A stretch of 35,592 nt of DNA from Vulcanimicrobiota bacterium. GTDB taxonomy: Bacteria > Vulcanimicrobiota > Vulcanimicrobiia > Vulcanimicrobiales > Vulcanimicrobiaceae. The stretch is taken from positions 1 to 35,592 of the forward strand of contig JAFAXS010000150.1 of the NCBI GenBank assembly GCA_019240755.1, read 5' to 3'. The notes beneath the pieces were generated by a model. That model worked only from the letters and a program-made list of their open reading frames with translations, made no database searches and was not told where the DNA came from. Position numbers and translations under genes: made by a program. Shown in pieces: positions 6,966 through 26,625 of this stretch; position 1 is the stretch's first letter, and every line of letters starts with the position of its first letter.

Positions 6966-7819
6966 GATTCCAGCCGCCGCGACGCCTGGCTTAACATGTA
7001 GCGCGCGCCCAAACTCAGGATCAACACCGCGACGATCAGGAGCAGCGCGCCGCCCCACGCCTGCGCCTGCCAGTTCGCGTACGGTGAAATCGCGTAGTTG
7101 AATACTTGCAGCGCGAGCACGGCCATCGGGCGACCGGGATTCGTCTCCCAAAACTGACTGCCGAACGCGGTGAAAAGCAGTGGCGCCGTCTCGCCCGTCA
7201 CGCGCGCGATCGCCAGCAACAGCGCGGTGATGATCGCGGGGCGTGCCGTCGGCAGTACCACGCGCATCGTCGCGCGGAAGTTCGACATTCCCAGGGCCAG
7301 CGCGCCTTCGCGCACCGTCTGCGGCACCGAGCGAATCGCTTGCTCCGACGTGCGCACCAGCAACGGCAGCATCAGCATCATGAAGGCAAACGACGCCGAG
7401 AAGGCCGAGAAGTGCTTGAGCGGCGCGACGAGCACCGTGTACGCGAACAGGCCAATGGCGATGCTCGGCACGCCCGACAGCACGTCGGAGAGAAAGCGGA
7501 GCGCTTCGGGAATCGTGCCGCGTCCGAAGAGCGCCAAGTAAATGCCGGTCAGCAACCCGAGCGGAATCGCCATCGCCGCGGCGATCGCGATGATGATGAT
7601 CGTCCCTAAGATGCCGTTACCCACGCCGCCGCCGGTCATGCCCACCGGCCGCGGCAACTGCGTCAGAAAGGCCCAGTTCACGGCGCCGATGCCTTGCACC
7701 ACGACGTAACCCAAAATCACCAGCAAGGCGCCGGCCGCGAGGAGCGCGCAGAGCAGCGTCAGGGCGGCGCCCGCCGACGCCGATACGCGGCGCCGGCGCA
7801 ATCGCGCGGTGCCGATCAC
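6962..7819 (-). CDS. pstA: Phosphate ABC transporter permease PstA
   Basis: This is one of the two membrane subunits of the high-affinity phosphate importer. From GTG 7819 it has 285 residues with about six transmembrane segments. The cytoplasmic coupling loop is recognisable as [20 protein letters not shown], and [10 protein letters not shown] and a C-terminal LSLGARYML segment fit PstA. The GTG start overlaps the pstC stop by four bases (GTGA), the same arrangement as at the pstA/pstB junction, implying translational coupling. The very long open frame reaching 8620 is an artefact of reading in the pstC region. Product acts in the inner membrane with PstC, PstB and PstS. Confidence 0.95.
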
Positions 7820-8757
7820 GCGCGCGACCCCCGGACGCTCCAGATCATGAGCCGTGCCACCGCGTTGACGACGATGCTCACGACGAACAGAATCAGGCCG
7901 AGCTCGATCAGCGCGCTGATGTACACCGCACTGGTCGCTTCGGTGAACTCGTTGGCAATCACGCTGGCCAGCGTGTACGACGGCGCAAATAGCGACGCCG
8001 AAATTTCCGGCCGGTTGCCGATCACCATCGTCACGGCGATCGTCTCGCCGAGCGCGCGCCCGAGCCCGAGCACGCACGCGCCGAAGATTCCGACGCGCGC
8101 CGCCGGCAACACCACGCGCGTTGCCGTCTCCCACTTCGTGCTTCCGAGCGCCATCGAGGCCTCGCGCAAGTCTCGGGGAATCGCGGCGATCACGTCGCGC
8201 GAAATGGCGGTGACCGTGGGCACGATCATGAGCGCCAAGATGATTCCCGCCGTCAACAATCCGACGCCGTAGATCGGGCCTGCGAACAGCGGCGTCCATC
8301 CCAAGAGATGCTGCAACACCGGGCCGATTGTCGTGCGCACCAAGGGCGCCAGCACGAAGAGTCCCCATAATCCGTACACGACGCTGGGAACCGCCGCCAG
8401 CAGCTCGATCAAGAATGACAGCGGCGCCGCGATCCAGCGCGGCGCAAAGTCGGCCAGGAACACCGCGGCCATGATCCCCACGAAAGAGGCCAGCAAGATC
8501 GCGATGAAGGAGGTCACCACGGTGCCGTAGATCATCGGCAGCGCGCCGAATTTGCTCGCTACCGGATCCCACGCGCTCTTCCAAATGAAGCTCGGCCCAA
8601 AGGCCCGCAAGGAGGGCCATGAGCCGAGCACGAGCTCGATGAACAGTCCGACGATCAAGACGGCGAACAGCGCGCTCCCGCCGTAGACGACCGCGGCAAA
8701 GCCACGGTCGACGGGGCTTACGAAGCGCGCAATGCGCCGAAACGCCGGCTCATCCAT
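7816..8757 (-). CDS. pstC: Phosphate ABC transporter permease PstC
   Basis: PstC pairs with PstA to form the phosphate channel. The 313-residue protein starts at ATG 8757 and has about six transmembrane segments. Family landmarks are LIELLAAVPSVVYGLWGLFVLAP, the coupling loop REASMALGSTKWETATRVVLP and GLGRALGETIAVTMVIGN. The ribosome binding site (AGGA, 8764-8767) is formed by a dispersed repeat that fills almost the whole 27-base gap after pstS. Expression is likely linked to pstS transcription, with the repeat possibly tuning the large stoichiometric difference between binding protein and permease; that last point is inference. Confidence 0.95.
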   Translation of the reverse strand: MDEPAFRRIARFVSPVDRGFAAVVYGGSALFAVLIVGLFIELVLGSWPSLRAFGPSFIWKSAWDPVASKFGALPMIYGTVVTSFIAILLASFVGIMAAVFLADFAPRWIAAPLSFLIELLAAVPSVVYGLWGLFVLAPLVRTTIGPVLQHLLGWTPLFAGPIYGVGLLTAGIILALMIVPTVTAISRDVIAAIPRDLREASMALGSTKWETATRVVLPAARVGIFGACVLGLGRALGETIAVTMVIGNRPEISASLFAPSYTLASVIANEFTEATSAVYISALIELGLILFVVSIVVNAVARLMIWSVRGSRA

Positions 8758-18528: not shown

Positions 18529-21500
18529 CTAGGCAGCGTCTAAAGGGAGACGCCGGGTATGAACGCCCGACGTTCGTCCGCGGTACGCGACGTAAACGAT
18601 CGGCACCACGAAGAGCGTGAGCAGCAGCGAGGTCGTCAGACCGCCGATCACGACCGTCCCCAGGGCGCGGCGGTACTCCGCGCCGGTCGTATCGCCCAGC
18701 GCCAGCGGCAGCATGCCGGCGATCATCGCAAACGTCGTCATCACGATCGGCCGAAAGCGCACGCGCGCCGCCTGACACACCGCGTCCAGCGCCCGGCGAC
18801 CGCGCCCAAAAGCGCGCTCGGAATACTCGATGAGCAGAATGCCGTTCTTCGCCACCAAGCCCACCAGCATCACGATTCCGAGCATCGAGTACAGATTGAG
18901 CGTTTGATTCTCCAGCACGCCCGCCGCGGGCCAAATGTTACGCAGCGCATTCAAAATGAAGAGCGTCCCGAACGCGCCCACCGCGGCAAGCGGAACCGTC
19001 ACCATCACGATCAGCGGCAGCGCATAACTACGATACAGCACGGCCAGGATCGCGTATACCAAACAGAGTGAAATCCCCAACGCGGCAAAAATTCGCACGA
19101 CCGCATCCAAAAATTGTTCCACGTCGCCGCGCGGCTCGATGCGCGCGCCCCCCGGAAGGAAACCCGGCTGCCGCAACGCGCGCGACACGGCCGACGTCAC
19201 GCGCCCGATCGGCGCGCCGGCCGCCGGGTTCGCGCTCACGGTGACGGTGCGGCGGCCGTCCTCGCGTTCCAGAATCACCGGCTGCTGCGACCGCGCGACG
19301 CGCGATACGTCGCCGAGCGGGATCGCGGTCCCATCGCTGCTGCGAACCAACTGTCGCTGTATCTCGTCCAGGTCGCCGTCGTGCGCCGCATCAGACTGCA
19401 CGACGACGTCAATCAGGCCCGAGGGCAATCTCGCCCGCGTCGCGATGGCCCCTGCGGTCCCGATGCGCGCGGTCTGCGCGGCATCGTTCGGATTGACGTC
19501 GAGCAGCTGCGCCTTCCGATCGTCGATCGCGATGGATACGTAGGGCGCCAACCCAAGATCGCTGCGCCGGACGTCCGTCGCGAACGGGTTTGCTTTCAAG
19601 ATGCCGGCGATGCGACCGGCAGCGACGTCCACGTCCGGTGAATCGCCGTCGCTGCCCGCGATGCTGTAGCTGATAGGAGCGGCCCCGCCCATGCCCTGTC
19701 CCGCCGCAGCAATCGTCGCGTCGGGAACCAGGTTGTTCAGCGCTTTCACCTCGCGGATCACGGCTTGTTCGTCGCCGTTTGGATCGCTCAAGATGATGCC
19801 GAGCTCGGCGACGTTCCCGGCGAATACGTCGGCATTGCCGTTGAAGGCGCGGCCCGCCGTCGCCTCGACGTGCGCGATCGCGGGGTCTTGCAGCAGCGCC
19901 TGCGTCACGCGCGATGCCGCGGCATCGGTTGTCGCGAGCGGCGTGCCGGCGGGCAAGGTCAGGGCGATCGTCGCCTTCCCTCGATTGATCGGCGGCGAGA
20001 ACTCCGTCGGAATCAAGCCGAAAAGCAGAACTGCAAGCGACGCGGCGCAGACGCCGATCACGGCCGCGGCCACGCCGAATCGCCGTCGCCACGCCCACGG
20101 CAGCCATGCGTCGGCATAACGCTGCGCCACGCGCGCTTCAAGCGCGCCGAAGGCATTGATCGCGCCGTGCCACGCCGCGATCAGATGCAGCAGAAGACCC
20201 TTACGGAACGTCCACGGCAGCGTGCGCGCTCGCGATCGGAGCGCCTCCACGACCGTTGCGTACGTCATCGCGTCGAACATCGGCGCGTGCTCCGGTAACG
20301 CCCAGCGTGCGCACAGCAGCGGCGTCAGCGTCAACGACACCAGCAGCGAGAAGGCCGTCGCGAACACGATTGCGAGCCCGAACTCGCGCATGAACTCGCC
20401 GATGATCCCCGGCATCAGGGCGACCGGCGCGAACACGGCGACGTCCACGAGCGTGATCGCGAACGCGGCGCCGCCCAACTCGCGTCGCCCTGCCAACGCC
20501 GCTTCATCGTTCGAGCGCCCGCGCCCCACGTTGCGCGCGATCGCCTCGATTATCACGATCGAGTCGTCAACCAAAATGCCGATCGTCAGCGAAAGGCCCA
20601 TCAACGTGAGCAGATTCAGGGTGAATCCGAACGCCCACATCGCCGCGAACGCGGCGCACAGCGAGCTCGGGATCGCAACCGCCGCGATGGCCGCCTTCCG
20701 CCACGAATGCAGGAAGAGGAGCATCACCACAACCGTTAGCGCGACGCCTTCGCCCAAAGTTTGAAGCACGCCGCCGATGGCGGCGCGCGTCGGCGGCTCG
20801 TCGGTGCGCAGCTCCTCGAAACGAACCGACGGCAACTGCGCGCGCAGCCGCGCAAACACGCGCCGAACGCCGGCGATCGTTCGCAGCGCGTCCGCGCCGG
20901 TCGACGCCGACACGGAGAGAATCGCCGACGAATCGCCGTCCACTCGCGAGATCGAGTTGCGCTCGGCGTAGCCGTCAACGACGTCGGCTACGTCGTGCAG
21001 TCGCGTCGCGGACGCCCCCGGAATGGTCACGGGCAACGCCTCCAACCGATCGGGTGCGACCGCCGACGCATCAATGCCGATCGCCGCCTCCGCCGTTCGC
21101 GACCGCAGAGTTCCGCCGGGAAAAACGTCGTTGCCCGCCGCCACGGCGCGAAACAAGTCCAGCGGGGTCGCGCGCAGCGCCGCAAGCGCCGCGGCGCGCG
21201 GCCGAATCGTGAACTGCCGCGTCTGCGCGCCGCCGACGACGACGCGCCCAACGCCCGGAGCCATTCGCACGGCGGGCGCTATCTGGCGCGAAAGTATCTC
21301 GGCGAGGCGGCCGTCGGAGAGCAGCGCCGAGCTGACGCCTTCCTCCACGATAGGCGCCTGCGTCGGATCGTCGTTTGAAACGACCGGCGCCACAAGATCG
21401 GCCGGCAGGTTCGCGCGCGCCGAGTCAACGGCTTGCTGCACGCCGGCCCGATCGGTCTCGATGCTGGAGCCGAAGCGGAAGCGGATCACGATCTGCGCCA

Positions 21501-21762
21501 GTCCGTTTTGCGCCGACGCCGAAACGCGCGCCACATCGGGCACGCTCTGCAGCGTCTCTTCGATGGGCTCCGCGATCAACCGCTCGATCTCCGCCGGCGC
21601 CGCGCCCGGATACGGCGCCGAGACCGACACGACCGGTATCGCGACGGGAGGCAGCATGCCGCGCCCCATGCGCGTGAACGCGACCAACCCCAGCAAACCC
21701 ACGAGCCCAAAGAAAAGCGTCGCCGCCACGGGATTGCGCAGGCAATATTTCGTGAGCCACAC
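18529..21762 (-). CDS. RND efflux transporter, HAE1/AcrB-like permease
   Basis: From GTG 21762 the protein has 1077 residues, right for a hydrophobe/amphiphile RND pump that exports drugs or other hydrophobic compounds using the proton gradient. It begins VWLTKYCLRNPVAATLFFGL, the usual first helix. The proton-relay residues are present: Asp399 and Asp400 in GILVDDSIVII, Lys972 in GLVAKNGILLIEY and Thr1009/1010 in IVMTTFAMIAGMLPLALG. Two large periplasmic domains follow helices 1 and 7. The cytoplasmic segment between helices 6 and 7 (about residues 490-560) is longer than in AcrB. No membrane fusion protein or outer-membrane channel gene is adjacent, so it must use partners elsewhere. The open frame continues upstream to 21936 without a plausible extra domain. 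Confidence 0.9.
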   Translation of the reverse strand: MWLTKYCLRNPVAATLFFGLVGLLGLVAFTRMGRGMLPPVAIPVVSVSAPYPGAAPAEIERLIAEPIEETLQSVPDVARVSASAQNGLAQIVIRFRFGSSIETDRAGVQQAVDSARANLPADLVAPVVSNDDPTQAPIVEEGVSSALLSDGRLAEILSRQIAPAVRMAPGVGRVVVGGAQTRQFTIRPRAAALAALRATPLDLFRAVAAGNDVFPGGTLRSRTAEAAIGIDASAVAPDRLEALPVTIPGASATRLHDVADVVDGYAERNSISRVDGDSSAILSVSASTGADALRTIAGVRRVFARLRAQLPSVRFEELRTDEPPTRAAIGGVLQTLGEGVALTVVVMLLFLHSWRKAAIAAVAIPSSLCAAFAAMWAFGFTLNLLTLMGLSLTIGILVDDSIVIIEAIARNVGRGRSNDEAALAGRRELGGAAFAITLVDVAVFAPVALMPGIIGEFMREFGLAIVFATAFSLLVSLTLTPLLCARWALPEHAPMFDAMTYATVVEALRSRARTLPWTFRKGLLLHLIAAWHGAINAFGALEARVAQRYADAWLPWAWRRRFGVAAAVIGVCAASLAVLLFGLIPTEFSPPINRGKATIALTLPAGTPLATTDAAASRVTQALLQDPAIAHVEATAGRAFNGNADVFAGNVAELGIILSDPNGDEQAVIREVKALNNLVPDATIAAAGQGMGGAAPISYSIAGSDGDSPDVDVAAGRIAGILKANPFATDVRRSDLGLAPYVSIAIDDRKAQLLDVNPNDAAQTARIGTAGAIATRARLPSGLIDVVVQSDAAHDGDLDEIQRQLVRSSDGTAIPLGDVSRVARSQQPVILEREDGRRTVTVSANPAAGAPIGRVTSAVSRALRQPGFLPGGARIEPRGDVEQFLDAVVRIFAALGISLCLVYAILAVLYRSYALPLIVMVTVPLAAVGAFGTLFILNALRNIWPAAGVLENQTLNLYSMLGIVMLVGLVAKNGILLIEYSERAFGRGRRALDAVCQAARVRFRPIVMTTFAMIAGMLPLALGDTTGAEYRRALGTVVIGGLTTSLLLTLFVVPIVYVAYRGRTSGVHTRRLPLDAA

Positions 21763-21886
21763 TCCCTGGAGATTTCGTGCCGGCGCGGAGCGCGGCTGCC
21801 GGAGCGTTGCCGTAATTACTTCATGCAGGAGTAAAACCGCGCCCGAACGGCGTTGCGTCGCGATCGAAACGTAGTATCTTTCCGGC

Positions 21887-22252
21887 ATGAAGAACATTCT
21901 ACTCGCCGTGGTCCTCGCACAAATGATGGGCCACAAGCCTCCGGTTCCAATGACGCCGCAGCAGTTCGCGCAACGCGCGCCGGGTCAAAGCGTTCAGATT
22001 GCGGTCCGCGTAAGGAGCGTGCAACGCACGACCGTGGTCGCCGAGCTGCTGGTGCACCAGACCGACACGCTGTCGCACCCGACGGGACAGTCGGTAAAGC
22101 TCTACGTCGCTTCGGGAACGCCCGTGATCATGGGGGCGCCCGGCGACATCGTTCCCGGCGCCGTCCTCTTCGTCTACGGCATCGTTACGAAATCGAACAG
22201 CGTTGACGTCAAACAAGTCGTCGTGGATACGAAATACGTGAAGGTTGAATAA
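21887..22252 (+). CDS. Small exported protein, possibly OB-fold
   Basis: A 121-residue protein with a short hydrophobic N-terminus (MKNILLAVVLAQMMG), probably a signal peptide or anchor, followed by a Met/His/Pro-rich stretch (QMMGHKPPVPM). The remainder has alternating beta strands (QSVQIAVRVRSVQRTTVVAELLV, GQSVKLYVA, AVLFVYGIV, VDVKQVVVD) that look like a five-strand OB-type barrel; this is by eye only. I do not recognise the family. Its TAA is one base before the GTG start of the putative diheme cytochrome gene, so the two are almost certainly cotranscribed. It is divergent from the RND gene across 124 bases. A role as redox or heme partner of the next gene product is speculation. Confidence 0.68.
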   Translation: MKNILLAVVLAQMMGHKPPVPMTPQQFAQRAPGQSVQIAVRVRSVQRTTVVAELLVHQTDTLSHPTGQSVKLYVASGTPVIMGAPGDIVPGAVLFVYGIVTKSNSVDVKQVVVDTKYVKVE

Positions 22253-22253
22253 C

Positions 22254-22637
22254 GTGAGCGGCTCGGATATCACGGCCTGGTTGGCGCTCGCGCTGATCCC
22301 GCTGACGGCCGCGATCGGTCGGGCGATCAGGCGCTGGGGTTCCGGCGCCTTCGCCCTTCGCATGCGGCCGCATTACGTGCTGGGATATCTGGCGCTGCTC
22401 GGCGCACTTTATCACACGATGGGAGCGATGTCCGCCACCGGTGGCGCGAATTCGAACGGCCTCTGGTTTGCGAGCCTCGCCACGCTCGGCCTCGGAGCGC
22501 AGGCCTTGCTCGGAACGAATCTGCAGGCTCCCGGCACGTACCGCAGGCCGTTGCGCCGTTGGCATATGATCCTCTTTTGGCTGACCGCCGCGTTGGCGCT
22601 CGCGCACGTCGTTCTCAATGGGCCGTTCCTCTCCTGA
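22254..22637 (+). CDS. Four-helix membrane protein with two HX13H motifs, probable diheme cytochrome b
   Basis: The 127-residue product has four hydrophobic helices at about 5-24, 40-58, 70-90 and 104-122. Helix 2 holds His40 and His54 (HYVLGYLALLGALYH) and helix 4 holds His104 and His118 (HMILFWLTAALALAH): in both, exactly thirteen residues separate the histidines. That spacing on two parallel helices is the bis-heme ligand pattern of cytochrome b and of ferric-reductase/NOX-type domains. The protein is much shorter than those families and has no flavin or NAD(P)H domain. GTG 22254 is chosen with AAGG nine bases before; TTG 22245 is possible. Its end overlaps the PadR gene by 20 bases. Heme binding is inferred from the pattern. 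Confidence 0.75.
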   Translation: MSGSDITAWLALALIPLTAAIGRAIRRWGSGAFALRMRPHYVLGYLALLGALYHTMGAMSATGGANSNGLWFASLATLGLGAQALLGTNLQAPGTYRRPLRRWHMILFWLTAALALAHVVLNGPFLS

Positions 22638-23199
22638 CGCAACCGCCGCAGCGGATCACCGCCGAGAGTTGCTCGTGCTAGGCATCCTTCGCTGGCAGGC
22701 GCTGTCGGCGTACGCGATCGACCGCGCCGTCCGCCGGCACACCGTGCTGTACCGCGGTCTGCGCCACGGCAACGTATACAATCTCGTCGGGCGCTTAGCC
22801 GAGTCCGGCTACATCGGCGGACGTTCCGGCAAAGCGAATCGCGGTCCCGCCGCGTCAAAGATCGTCTATCACGTCACGCCCAAAGGCGAACAGCGCTTTC
22901 GTCAAATTCTCGAAGCGGTTCTCTACGACACCGCCGCGGATGATTGCTCGCTGCAGATCGCGCTCGTTCTGCTCACGCAGCTCAGGCGTTCGCAGGCGAC
23001 TCGAATGCTCGAACGCCGGAACCGAGAACTCATTGCGCAGGAGCGTCGGCTCAAGCGCCTCTACGGCGACAGTTCCCGCTCCGCCGCCGCGTCGCTCGCC
23101 GGGGCGCACGCCGTTTCGCGCCTGCAATCGGAGAAGCGTTTTGTCAGTGACGCGCTGCGCCTCATTGCCAAGCGAAGTTCCTATCCGGATTGGGAATGA
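22618..23199 (+). CDS. PadR-family transcriptional regulator
   Basis: This 193-residue protein has an N-terminal winged-helix domain of the PadR type (about residues 15-100): RRELLVLGILRWQALSAYAI, then GNVYNLVGRLAESGYI and YHVTPKGEQRFRQIL, the usual recognition helix and wing. The C-terminal half (about 100-193) is helical and rich in Arg/Glu, consistent with a dimerisation coiled coil. PadR proteins commonly repress neighbouring efflux or stress genes in response to small molecules, so this one may control its own operon or the divergent RND pump; both are inference. The ATG at 22618 overlaps the end of the membrane-protein gene by 20 bases, implying cotranscription. Confidence 0.85.
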   Translation: MGRSSPDATAAADHRRELLVLGILRWQALSAYAIDRAVRRHTVLYRGLRHGNVYNLVGRLAESGYIGGRSGKANRGPAASKIVYHVTPKGEQRFRQILEAVLYDTAADDCSLQIALVLLTQLRRSQATRMLERRNRELIAQERRLKRLYGDSSRSAAASLAGAHAVSRLQSEKRFVSDALRLIAKRSSYPDWE

Positions 23200-23256: not shown

Positions 23257-24213
23257 ATGAGGCTTTCCACGTTTGCATGGCGCGGCGCGTGCGCGGGCGT
23301 GGCGGCCGCGCTGCTGGCCGCCTGCGGACAAGTGTCGGGCCCGCTCGTGGCCCGGAGTGCGATCTCGCAAGTCAGGGCGCCGGCCACGGGCCATCACAAA
23401 TTCCGCTATACCGGCGGAGAACAGTTCTTCACGGTACCCGCCGGAATAACGCACGTGCGGATCGTCGCGCAAGGCGCCGGCACGCCTGCGGCCACCTATA
23501 TTCCTGGAAGCCGCGGCGGCACGGCGGAAGGAACCATTACCGTGACGCCGGGTGAGAAGCTGGCGGTCTTCGTTGGGGGCAAAGGGCTCCTCGGAGCCAA
23601 CGGCGGCGGCGGACTCGGCGGTTTCAACGGCGGCGGCGACGGCGGCAAAGGCGTGTACATGGGAAGCAACAGCAACGGCGGCACCGGCGGCGGGGGTGCC
23701 TCCGACGTTCGCCAACGCGGCGACGCGTTGACGAATCGTGTGGTCGTCGCGGGCGGCGGTGGAGGCGGAGGGATCGCGGTCGGATTCTATGGCGCCGGCG
23801 TCGGCGGTGAAGGCGGCGGAAACATCGGTCAGAACGGCCGCGGCGGTTATCCGGGCGGAGTCATCGGTGGCGGAGGCTACGGCGGTACGCAGCGCAAGGG
23901 CGGCAAAGGCGGCCTTGGCGCGCATTTCGGCTCATCCAGCCAGGGCGCACACGGCTATCGCGGGCGCTTGGGCCGTGGAGGCGCGGGCGGTCCCGGTTAT
24001 ACCAAGAGCGGTTATGGCGGCGGTGGCGGCGGCGGTGGCGGTGGTTACTACGGCGGTGGCGGGGGCGGCTCGGGCTCGAACCGCACGAGCGGTGTCGGCG
24101 GCGGCGGCGGCGGCGGAGGCGGCTCCGGCTACGTCACACCGCGCGCAACCCACGCGAAAACGATCCAAGGCGCGGGTTCACCGAAAAACGGTGGAGTCGA
24201 GATCTTTTGGTAA
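23257..24213 (+). CDS. Glycine-rich lipoprotein
   Basis: A 318-residue predicted lipoprotein: signal GACAGVAAALLAACG with acylated Cys23. A short beta region (KFRYTGGEQFFTVPAGITHV, residues about 48-67) precedes long glycine-rich stretches with loops such as GGGGLGGFNGGGDGGKG, GGGGASDVRQRGDAL and VVVAGGGGGGG. This order matches the glycine-rich domain found in many secreted bacterial proteins and in ALK/LTK receptors, which folds as polyglycine-II helices. It ends NGGVEIFW. A surface or structural role is inferred; no enzyme motif is present. AAGGAG supports the ATG. Its end overlaps the TTG start of the next gene by seven bases. Confidence 0.8.
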   Translation: MRLSTFAWRGACAGVAAALLAACGQVSGPLVARSAISQVRAPATGHHKFRYTGGEQFFTVPAGITHVRIVAQGAGTPAATYIPGSRGGTAEGTITVTPGEKLAVFVGGKGLLGANGGGGLGGFNGGGDGGKGVYMGSNSNGGTGGGGASDVRQRGDALTNRVVVAGGGGGGGIAVGFYGAGVGGEGGGNIGQNGRGGYPGGVIGGGGYGGTQRKGGKGGLGAHFGSSSQGAHGYRGRLGRGGAGGPGYTKSGYGGGGGGGGGGYYGGGGGGSGSNRTSGVGGGGGGGGGSGYVTPRATHAKTIQGAGSPKNGGVEIFW

Positions 24214-25325
24214 TACGCAAACGAACTTTCGCGCTCACGGCGATCGTGGCGTGCGCGGCGTGCGCCGGCGCGCAACCACCGCTGTCGTCGAGCGCAATGC
24301 AGCCGCGCAGCGCATCGATCGCGCATGACGCGGTCGGCAGCCTCGCGCGCGGAACCGGCGCGTCGCTCCTCTTCGAGGCGCAGGACACGGGAAGCAACGC
24401 CTATCTGTACCTCGCGAAATTACCGCACGGCCCGACGTATACGTTGACAACCGCCGCGTACGCTCCCGTCGGCGTAGCGTTCAATCGTGCGGGCACGACC
24501 GCATACGCGTGGTACGGCAACTATTATGGCTCGTTCGCCGCCGAACTCGACGTAATCAACGTGTCCGACGGAAAGCTCGTCGGCACGATGCCTGCAAACG
24601 GTTGCGGCGGAAGCCTCGCGCTGACGCCCGACGAAACAGTCGCGGTGGCCGACGACTCCTGCGAGAACGCGGTGCAACTCTTTTCGCTGCCGTCCCTCAA
24701 GATCACCGCGACCGTAGGACTGAATGGCCTGAACAACCCCACGGGCGTGGCGATCGATGCTTTCGGGAAGAAGGCCTACGTCGCCGGCAACGGTGGAATC
24801 GCAATCGTAGACATCCGGCACGCGCGCCAGACCGGCATTGTCACGCTCCCGGGCGGCAGTTGCTGGCTCGGCGCCATCACCGGCATCGCGCTCGTGCAAC
24901 GATTATCGCGGGCATATGCCGCAACGTGCGACCAATCCAACGAACAACCGCTCGTGGCCGTCGTTGATACGCGATCACAGAAACTCGTGAAAACCATCAA
25001 CGTCGGCAACGCCGCGAAGGAATGGCCCCTCGCCGTCGCTGCGGCGGCGCTCCACCACTACGTCTACGTTTCCGTGGAAAACTCTGACGGCATACACGGC
25101 GAGCTTTCCGCCATTGACACGCGCAGCGATACCGTGACGAAGATCAAACCCTTATCGTGGTCGCCGGACGCCGTAGCGATGAGCCCCAACGACACCGCCG
25201 TCTTCGCTACGTCGTGGAGGGGAGCGGTCTGGTATTCGCTCGGGCCTGGCGGTTTCAAGGGTAAGGAGAAAGGCCCCATCTGCTGCCAGACCGCGGTCGC
25301 GGCCTTCGGCGACTTCGTCCACTAG
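24207..25325 (+). CDS. YncE-like beta-propeller lipoprotein
   Basis: A 372-residue predicted exported protein. I start at TTG 24207, with GGAG about ten bases upstream and a seven-base overlap with the glycine-rich gene; this keeps an intact signal (RTFALTAIVACAACAG, lipobox IVAC at Cys16 or a later Cys19). From residue 50 it has propeller blades of the YncE/surface-antigen type: YLAKLPHGPTYTLTT, AELDVINVSDGKLVGTM, KKAYVAGNGGIAIVDI, QPLVAVVDTRSQKLVKTINV and GELSAIDTRSDTVTKI. The function is not known. The overlap suggests translation coupled to the glycine-rich protein. Its TAG lies within CTAG at 25322-25325, shared with the stop of the convergent flavoprotein gene. Confidence 0.77.
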   Translation: MVIRKRTFALTAIVACAACAGAQPPLSSSAMQPRSASIAHDAVGSLARGTGASLLFEAQDTGSNAYLYLAKLPHGPTYTLTTAAYAPVGVAFNRAGTTAYAWYGNYYGSFAAELDVINVSDGKLVGTMPANGCGGSLALTPDETVAVADDSCENAVQLFSLPSLKITATVGLNGLNNPTGVAIDAFGKKAYVAGNGGIAIVDIRHARQTGIVTLPGGSCWLGAITGIALVQRLSRAYAATCDQSNEQPLVAVVDTRSQKLVKTINVGNAAKEWPLAVAAAALHHYVYVSVENSDGIHGELSAIDTRSDTVTKIKPLSWSPDAVAMSPNDTAVFATSWRGAVWYSLGPGGFKGKEKGPICCQTAVAAFGDFVH

Positions 25326-26506
25326 AACGTATTCGCCCAAAAGCGCAACGCCTGACGGTAGAGGAACGCGCGCTCGGAAAAAGTTCGCTCGCAATCGTCT
25401 TTAAGCAGCACCTCCGCTAGCCGCGGCGTCGCCGCCATTTGCGCGAACAGGCGCGCGTAGCGGCTCGGACGCCGTTCCAAGTAGCGCATCAGCATCACCC
25501 GATGTTGTAGACGGCCTCTGAAGCGTTGCCCGATCGAGCGGGAGTAGCGTTCGGCGACGTGATCGCGCCGCGCAACGGCGTCTGCGGCGAGCCGCCCGCT
25601 CATCGCGGCCTCAAAAATTCCTTCGCCGTTAGTCGCGTCCACGAATCCCGCGGCCGTTCCGCCGACGAGTACGCGACCGTCCGCAACGCAGCGCCGGGCC
25701 GGACCGCCATACAACAAATGCCCTTCGACCTTCACGTGAGTCACTGCCGCGCCCGGATAGAGCCGCCGTTGCACGCGTTCGGTAAATCGCTCGAGCTCCG
25801 CGCGCAGCGAGGCGCCGTCGATCTTTCCCATCACGCCTAAGCCGATCGCGAGATGGTCGCGCTTCGGAAACATCCATGCAATCAACGGACGACCGTCGCG
25901 CGCGCAATAGTAGTGCAGTTCCAGCGTTTCGTAGGCGACGGCGGCGGCGGGTCGATCTAAGTAGACGCGATACTGCAAGGTCGTGATGAGGCCCTCGCGC
26001 CAGCGCGCCATTGCCAGCCGCCCAAACGCTGCGTCCTCGAGACGCGCGGTAGCGCCGGCGGCTAGGAACACGGTTCGGGCGGCGATCGTCCGTCGCTCTT
26101 CGCTCGCCAGGTCGGCGTACTCCACGAGCGCGCAATCGCCTTCGATCTTTAACGTTCGAAAGAGTGCCCGCGTGCGAATCTCCGCGCCGTCGCGCGCGGC
26201 CAAGGCTGCCATCGCGCCGTCGAGTTCCTCGCGCGTGCTCGTATGGCCGGGTCCGAAGAACGTCTCGTACTCTTGCGCCCCAGCATCAAAGAGCGCGAGG
26301 CGCCGCGTGTCGCAATGCACGAGCTCCCGCGGCAAGTCGAAGGTCCGGCAGAAGCCTGGGCGCAGGCCTGCGGCGCAGACGCGCTTGGCGCCCACGACGG
26401 AGTCGCGCTCCAAGACGACCGTCGCCACGCCGCGGCGCGCCGCCTCGCGCGCAGCAGTCGCTCCGGCCGGCCCACAGCCGACGATCAAGAAATCGGTGCG
26501 TTCCAT
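25322..26506 (-). CDS. Geranylgeranyl reductase-family FAD-dependent oxidoreductase
   Basis: The 394-residue flavoprotein starts at ATG 26506 (MERTDFLIVGCGPAGATAA), giving the FAD-binding GxGxxG motif at about residues 10-15. Family marks are CAAGL near residue 45, the substrate-region motif PLIAWMFPKRDHLAIGLGV (versus Y-x-W-x-FPK-x5-G in the family) and the second FAD motif VLVGGTAAGFVDATNGEGIFEAAMSG. Such enzymes reduce double bonds of isoprenoid chains, for example of quinones, (bacterio)chlorophyll side chains or lipids. The substrate cannot be assigned here and no pigment genes are nearby. No export signal is seen. The frame is open back to 26578 without further domain. Confidence 0.85.
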   Translation of the reverse strand: MERTDFLIVGCGPAGATAAREAARRGVATVVLERDSVVGAKRVCAAGLRPGFCRTFDLPRELVHCDTRRLALFDAGAQEYETFFGPGHTSTREELDGAMAALAARDGAEIRTRALFRTLKIEGDCALVEYADLASEERRTIAARTVFLAAGATARLEDAAFGRLAMARWREGLITTLQYRVYLDRPAAAVAYETLELHYYCARDGRPLIAWMFPKRDHLAIGLGVMGKIDGASLRAELERFTERVQRRLYPGAAVTHVKVEGHLLYGGPARRCVADGRVLVGGTAAGFVDATNGEGIFEAAMSGRLAADAVARRDHVAERYSRSIGQRFRGRLQHRVMLMRYLERRPSRYARLFAQMAATPRLAEVLLKDDCERTFSERAFLYRQALRFWANTF

Positions 26507-26625
26507 TGTGCTCGTTCGGGATGAAGACGGCGTTAAGATACGACTTTTCCTGCAGGCGGCGTTTTGCTGGATAGCCAAGCGGGAAACCTCTTACCTACCT
26601 AAGCGTACTTACAAAGGAGTAACGT

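Follow-up and report, generated by a model that had tools for sequence, protein, structure and literature searches.

What could a membrane protein of only 127 residues, whose four histidines fall into two exact HX13H pairs, be doing between the genes for a secreted protein and a transcriptional regulator, next to an efflux pump? An earlier note, made from the letters of this DNA alone, had read the protein as a stripped four-helix b-type cytochrome that might carry electrons across the membrane. Our analysis of the whole stretch of 35,592 nucleotides (the window) and of related loci in other genomes, designated here by L numbers, supports a reading to which we assign a probability of roughly 0.6: the protein would be a minimal stand-alone diheme b cytochrome, repressed by PadR and induced by stress, that conducts electrons through the membrane.

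Protein and structural model

The gene (22254–22637, plus strand) encodes 127 amino acids from a GTG start, a start that is supported because the homologue in locus L007 begins with the same VSGSD sequence. Histidines occur in the protein at positions 40, 54, 104 and 118 only (codons 22371–22373, 22413–22415, 22563–22565 and 22605–22607, all on the plus strand) and form two exact HX13H pairs, whereas four histidines placed at random in 127 positions give two disjoint pairs of this kind with p = 0.0007. An AlphaFold2 model with 16 homologues as input is a four-helix bundle (pLDDT 85.3, pTM 0.77) with helices at residues 3–28, 38–61, 67–89 and 97–122; these limits place His40 and His54 in helix 2 and His104 and His118 in helix 4. 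Translation and model thus uphold the earlier description of a four-helix, 127-residue protein with 13-residue spacings in its second and fourth helices.

The first three Foldseek matches to the model are cytochrome b561 (4o7g), SpNOX (8qt6) and the designed diheme protein 4D2, with E values above 0.2. In VIA-align, cytochrome b6 matches the full 127 residues with a Z score of 13.2, ahead of 4D2 (12.1) and SpNOX (11.7), on a scale where helical bundles reach 13 by arrangement alone, without relationship, and in a list that also holds unrelated designed bundles. Over the aligned SpNOX range (28–151), simple interpolation, made without a residue map, puts H40, H54, H104 and H118 about two residues from the ligands H69, H82, H129 and H142. 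A predicted fold with the histidines on opposite faces or outside the membrane would have told against the earlier proposal, and no such fold was obtained; the predicted bundle of four helices finds its closest structural counterparts in diheme cytochromes, natural and designed.

Conservation and distribution

The family as assembled has 17 members, the window protein and 16 further homologues, of which one was found with the alignment profile after the 16-row alignment had been made. Identity ranges from 27 to 52% among the 15 aligned homologues. All four histidines and both 13-residue spacings are invariant in 17 of 17 members (the 16 aligned sequences and the later homologue), as a ligand role for these residues had led the earlier note to expect. 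Also invariant in the 16-row alignment are W9, R26, R38, A76, G87, L90 and R97, and almost invariant are R101 and G44, the latter a conserved glycine four residues C-terminal of H40. From this ligand pattern and its conservation, both directly observed, we infer that the four histidines bind two b hemes. Six-coordinate bis-histidine hemes are typical of electron transfer, and established knowledge of such proteins suggests that these would be bis-histidine b hemes that transfer electrons across the membrane.

Of 149 genomes searched in the phylum of the window, 7 carry the cytochrome, and these include 2 of the 18 own-genus genomes searched. One Dormibacteraeota genome is positive (a single-sequence scan of genome contigs gave one locus, L010), and 10 of 400 genomes sampled from the phylum of L010 carry the gene. 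Across the two phyla that this sampling spans, the distribution is patchy. No relative was found in plasmid and viral collections, the family profile matched no PDB sequence, and the open-access literature yielded no earlier description. The protein is best described as a stand-alone diheme b cytochrome whose family is small and apparently undescribed.

Predicted topology

Positive charges are concentrated in loops 1 and 3 (means of 5.2 and 5.2), whereas the two termini and loop 2 average 0.1 to 0.75. By the positive-inside rule, these basic loops would place both termini outside, the heme paired between H40 and H104 on the cytoplasmic side and the heme paired between H54 and H118 on the outer side.

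This orientation bears on the possibility that the protein acts like the superoxide oxidase CybB, passing electrons from superoxide at the outer side through two hemes to quinone at the inner side. CybB is also a minimal four-helix diheme bundle (PMC11869295) and belongs to PF01292, the family whose profile is nearest to the cytochrome; in addition, a designed diheme bundle shows some superoxide oxidase-type activity (PMC10120048). However, CybB relies on clustered positive residues at its outer side to collect superoxide (PMC11869295), whereas the outer segments of the present cytochrome are almost devoid of positive charge and its basic clusters are predicted to face the cytoplasm. The absence of a CybB-type positive cluster from the outer face makes such a role less likely; moreover, a profile built from CybB-like proteins only does not match the family (0.5% probability), and the ligand positions differ. 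We consider a superoxide oxidase role unlikely.

Relationship to known cytochrome families

Neither the window protein nor any family member reaches a curated Pfam or NCBIfam cut-off, and this holds for the families to which the earlier note had pointed, including ferric reductase, cytochrome b561, DUF4405 and cytochrome b. The label ‘stand-alone’ is right for that reason. Sub-threshold Pfam hits recur among 16 members, to Ni_hydr_CYTB in eight, Ferric_reduct in six, and DUF4405 and DUF4079 in four each. For Ni_hydr_CYTB (PF01292; gathering score 30.1 bits), the window protein scores 13.5 bits and the best among the members listed 24 bits. For PF01794 (gathering score 28 bits), the window protein has no hit and 6 of 16 members have weak ones (best E 0.0083); for DUF4405 (PF14358) and DUF4079 (PF13301), the window protein again has none, and the hits in 4 of 16 members each (best E 2.2e-4 and 2.9e-3) stay below the gathering scores.

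These recurrent weak hits to diheme families, together with the structural matches to diheme proteins, also bear on whether heme is present at all. The four histidines might instead bind a metal or be purely structural, and indeed the evidence for heme is indirect and no curated heme family is reached. Against this stand the exact HX13H pairs on alternate helices and the conserved glycine four residues past H40, and we regard a protein without heme as very improbable.

The best profile–profile match is to PF01292, at 82% hhalign probability with a score of 41 over 121 columns, colinear and full-length, compared with scores of at most 18.8 for block-shuffled controls. With the histidine columns masked, the register stays the same but the probability drops from 82% to 0.3%; what the two profiles share therefore lies in the ligands. 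The argument for descent from PF01292 by a ligand swap collapsed with this masking of the four columns, and such descent is retained as a possibility: from the sequences, shared descent with a moved ligand and convergence cannot be told apart. Ancestry from the ferric reductase domain (FRD) or from cytochrome b was set aside for want of a significant profile match (7–9% for the ferric reductase profile and 1.5% by hhalign for the cytochrome b profile), and 60 genomes of relatives yielded no PF01794 protein. The earlier reading of a stripped four-helix b-type cytochrome is supported, with a refinement: the protein is a stand-alone four-helix bundle that reaches no family cut-off, but its sequence points to no one known family from which it was stripped, the PF01292 match being lost with the histidines.

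Gene neighbourhood

Three genes flank the cytochrome closely in the window. A secreted OB-fold protein of 121 residues (21887–22252, plus strand) ends one base before the cytochrome start; a PadR-family transcriptional regulator (22618–23199, plus strand) overlaps the end of the cytochrome gene; and, divergently, an RND efflux permease of the multidrug (HAE1/AcrB) type occupies 18529–21762 on the minus strand, its start near 21762 being assigned from homologues within a frame open to 21936. The earlier note, sound on the cytochrome itself, had missed this conserved context of PadR, OB-fold and transporter genes. Of the 17 family loci, 13 have a related PadR gene no more than 1.5 kb away and 6 an OB gene (7 over the whole fetched locus), compared with 0 of 85 control loci for either; the control loci carry other cytochrome families, come from genomes unmatched to the family loci and exceed the 17 in total sequence.

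All four genes (multidrug-type RND permease, secreted OB-fold protein, cytochrome and PadR) are present in five of five loci from the taxonomic family of the window, and because gene order differs among these loci, the linkage has been kept despite rearrangement. In L008 and L009, from the same class, PadR and the cytochrome are found together with a small membrane protein and a UbiA prenyltransferase, and L009 also has the OB protein. Among the remaining loci, PadR is adjacent in six and the OB protein present in L037; other adjoining transporters are an MMPL protein in L031 and, in L038 and L134, open frames that our reading of the sequence names as MFS-type.

Several neighbours are of interest in their own right. 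The UbiA genes lie two genes downstream of the cytochrome (L008, 3987–4823, plus; L009, 9874–10698, plus); for the L008 copy, heme o synthase gives the highest score, though one below cut-off, and this may be a divergent paralogue. Beside PadR in L009, a minus-strand gene (7079–7975) combines MtrA (methyltransferase subunit A, PF04208) and PterinBD-DUF4346 domains, an unusual neighbour for a cytochrome cassette, and a protein similar to it by eye is encoded beside PadR in L008 (1504–2499, minus). Immediately downstream of the cytochrome, L034 (7412–7810, plus) and L036 (7434–7877, plus) encode small, mutually similar membrane proteins of no clear family. In the window, a secreted, very glycine-rich protein of 318 residues with no NCBIfam or Pfam match follows PadR (23257–24213, plus), and a geranylgeranyl reductase-type FAD protein below its subfamily cut-offs lies at 25322–26578 (minus).

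The OB protein has no Pfam match above cut-off and shows no cofactor motif. Its model (pLDDT 87.5) has five strands and resembles many OB folds, YgiW among them, with the heme chaperone CcmE lower in the ranking; CusF and other metal chaperones are absent from the structural matches listed. A Cus-like copper system of RND pump and OB protein was set aside, as the pump scores as multidrug rather than heavy-metal type.

The fold also invites the idea that the cytochrome holds heme, or passes it across the membrane, to a CcmE-like OB-fold chaperone. Beyond the fold and the lower-ranked CcmE match, the heme-O-synthase-like UbiA genes of L008 and L009 would fit such a role. OB folds are common, however, an OB profile search of PDB sequences did not return CcmE, there was no CcmE model hit, the OB alignment contains no conserved heme-linking histidine, and bis-histidine six-coordinate hemes are, as noted above, typical of electron transfer. 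Heme handling is thus an improbable function. Since four loci lack both PadR and operator and ten lack the OB gene, the OB partner is not universal.

Operator-like sites and a probable regulon

Between the divergent RND and OB/cytochrome genes lies a palindromic operator-like site, ATTACTTC-N5-GAAGTAAT, at 21815–21835 (plus strand), which reads ATTACTTCATGCAGGAGTAAA and carries two mismatches; it is the only match in the 35.6-kb window, where 0.01 are expected. The same pattern is found in four sister loci of the taxonomic family, exact in three, and throughout that family it fronts the cytochrome, the OB-fold protein and the RND pump. In two loci where the OB gene stands apart from the cytochrome there is a second copy, upstream of the OB gene in L007 (5812) and between the OB and PadR genes in L021 (8170). 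The other eight PadR-bearing loci carry a different pattern, AGTCAGTNNTGACT, frequently in two copies; seven loci match it exactly and L035 differs at one position, while 278 kb of control DNA hold no exact match to it. The classical PadR motif ATGT-N-ACAT was not found in the promoters. In L031, the operator at 8123 faces a stretch (7550–8123) in which an OB gene was sought and not found, and which may hold decayed gene remains.

PadR and one or other operator pattern occur together in 13 of 17 loci, and both are missing in the other four (L010, L033, L038 and L134, where neither pattern is present). This co-occurrence is the strongest argument we have for a single regulon of PadR, OB protein, cytochrome and pump, and on these sequence grounds the cytochrome gene probably belongs to it. 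PadR regulators generally control genes for detoxification and multidrug resistance (PMC3506622).

Could the cytochrome instead be a redox or ligand sensor that reports the state of the membrane to PadR or to the pump? It is small, has no catalytic domain and is tightly linked to PadR and transporters. But PadR repressors are soluble proteins that bind ligands and, as a rule, sense them directly, and four loci have the cytochrome with no PadR; we think a sensor role decidedly unlikely.

Proposed mechanism and implications

We propose that one heme, held by H40 and H104, lies close to the cytoplasmic face and another, held by H54 and H118, close to the outer face, so that the two would form an electron path across the membrane. 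The adjoining PadR-type repressor would bind the palindrome that precedes the cytochrome, OB-fold and RND genes, a step suggested by the observed site and linkage, and could leave it on sensing a toxic small molecule. Once made, the cytochrome would connect the quinol pool, or a donor in the cytoplasm, with an electron acceptor on the outer side. That acceptor would most likely be the OB-fold protein of the periplasm or its cargo, and the transfer could form the redox part of a response by detoxification or efflux. Heme binding and control by PadR have good support in the sequences; the direction of the transfer, its partner and its substrate are what we infer, and outward flow, the OB protein as partner and a role in detoxification are speculative. 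A more specific version, in which a four-helix diheme conduit oriented like NADPH oxidase, with no flavin domain, drives electrons outward to the OB partner alongside the efflux pump within a PadR-controlled detoxification regulon, is tentative, and we hold it with considerable doubt.

There would be several implications if these readings are true. First, the outward conduit would define a previously undescribed kind of envelope stress system, with a regulon that links membrane redox chemistry, drug-type efflux and a PadR sensor. Second, the cytochrome would rank with the smallest diheme proteins that span a membrane in nature; it would be the natural equivalent of the designed CytbX and could serve as a clean model of the way in which a bare bundle holds two hemes and tunes them. 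Third, NOX-like two-plus-two ligands would occur in a protein whose nearest profile has another ligand set, implying either that one of the heme ligands has shifted out of helix 1 into helix 2 or that the two-plus-two layout arose twice. Finally, unannotated genes of little-studied phyla would gain a testable function.

Comparison with known systems

PF01292 proteins likewise have four helices, and their helix-2 histidine and helix-4 HX13H pair align with H40, H104 and H118. However, their remaining ligand lies in helix 1 (a histidine in 22 of 22 members), where the present family has alanine or glycine (16 of 16) before the invariant tryptophan; here, helix 2 holds two histidines, H54 being additional to the PF01292 set of one in helix 1, one in helix 2 and the helix-4 pair. 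The charge topology of the PF01292 members examined is also opposite to that of the present cytochrome. One PF01292-type cytochrome, in L110, has a fifth histidine 14 residues past its helix-2 ligand, at the position of H54, while keeping that of helix 1, and is a possible intermediate for a ligand shift.

In ferric reductase domains, the cytoplasmic histidine comes first in the chain, with two histidines on each of two helices and one helix between them (PMC3591440). The present histidines likewise form two pairs on alternate helices with the cytoplasmic pair first, so that ligand layout and predicted orientation are those of the ferric reductase superfamily (PF01794: NOX, bFRE, MsrQ/YedZ and STEAP). 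Four-His bacterial FRD members share the H-x3-G-x9-H motif, and SpNOX is one of the top structural matches; by contrast, the FRD has six helices rather than four and a second spacing of X12 rather than X13.

Cytochrome b of the bc1 and b6f complexes carries HX13H and HX13–14H on helices B and D, and here too two such helices stand in a four-helix bundle; cytochrome b6 is the best natural VIA match. Sequence similarity is absent, however, and the present protein lacks the further helices and quinone motifs. The order of the histidines relative to the membrane is, moreover, reversed in bc1 cytochrome b.

The designed proteins 4D2 and CytbX are bare four-helix bundles for two b hemes, in the size range of about 110–127 residues, and this natural protein would be another. 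CytbX, an artificial protein of 113 residues, has its histidines on alternating helices and its hemes about 6 Å apart (PMC10120048).

By analogy, the nearest functional counterpart may be the LcoA–BcnA system of Burkholderia, a cytochrome b561 and a secreted lipocalin that are induced by antibiotics and oxidants and limit lipid peroxidation (PMC9113575). Both systems would pair a small membrane b cytochrome with a small secreted β-barrel protein, although the partner is a lipocalin there and an OB fold here, and ligand pattern and regulator differ as well.
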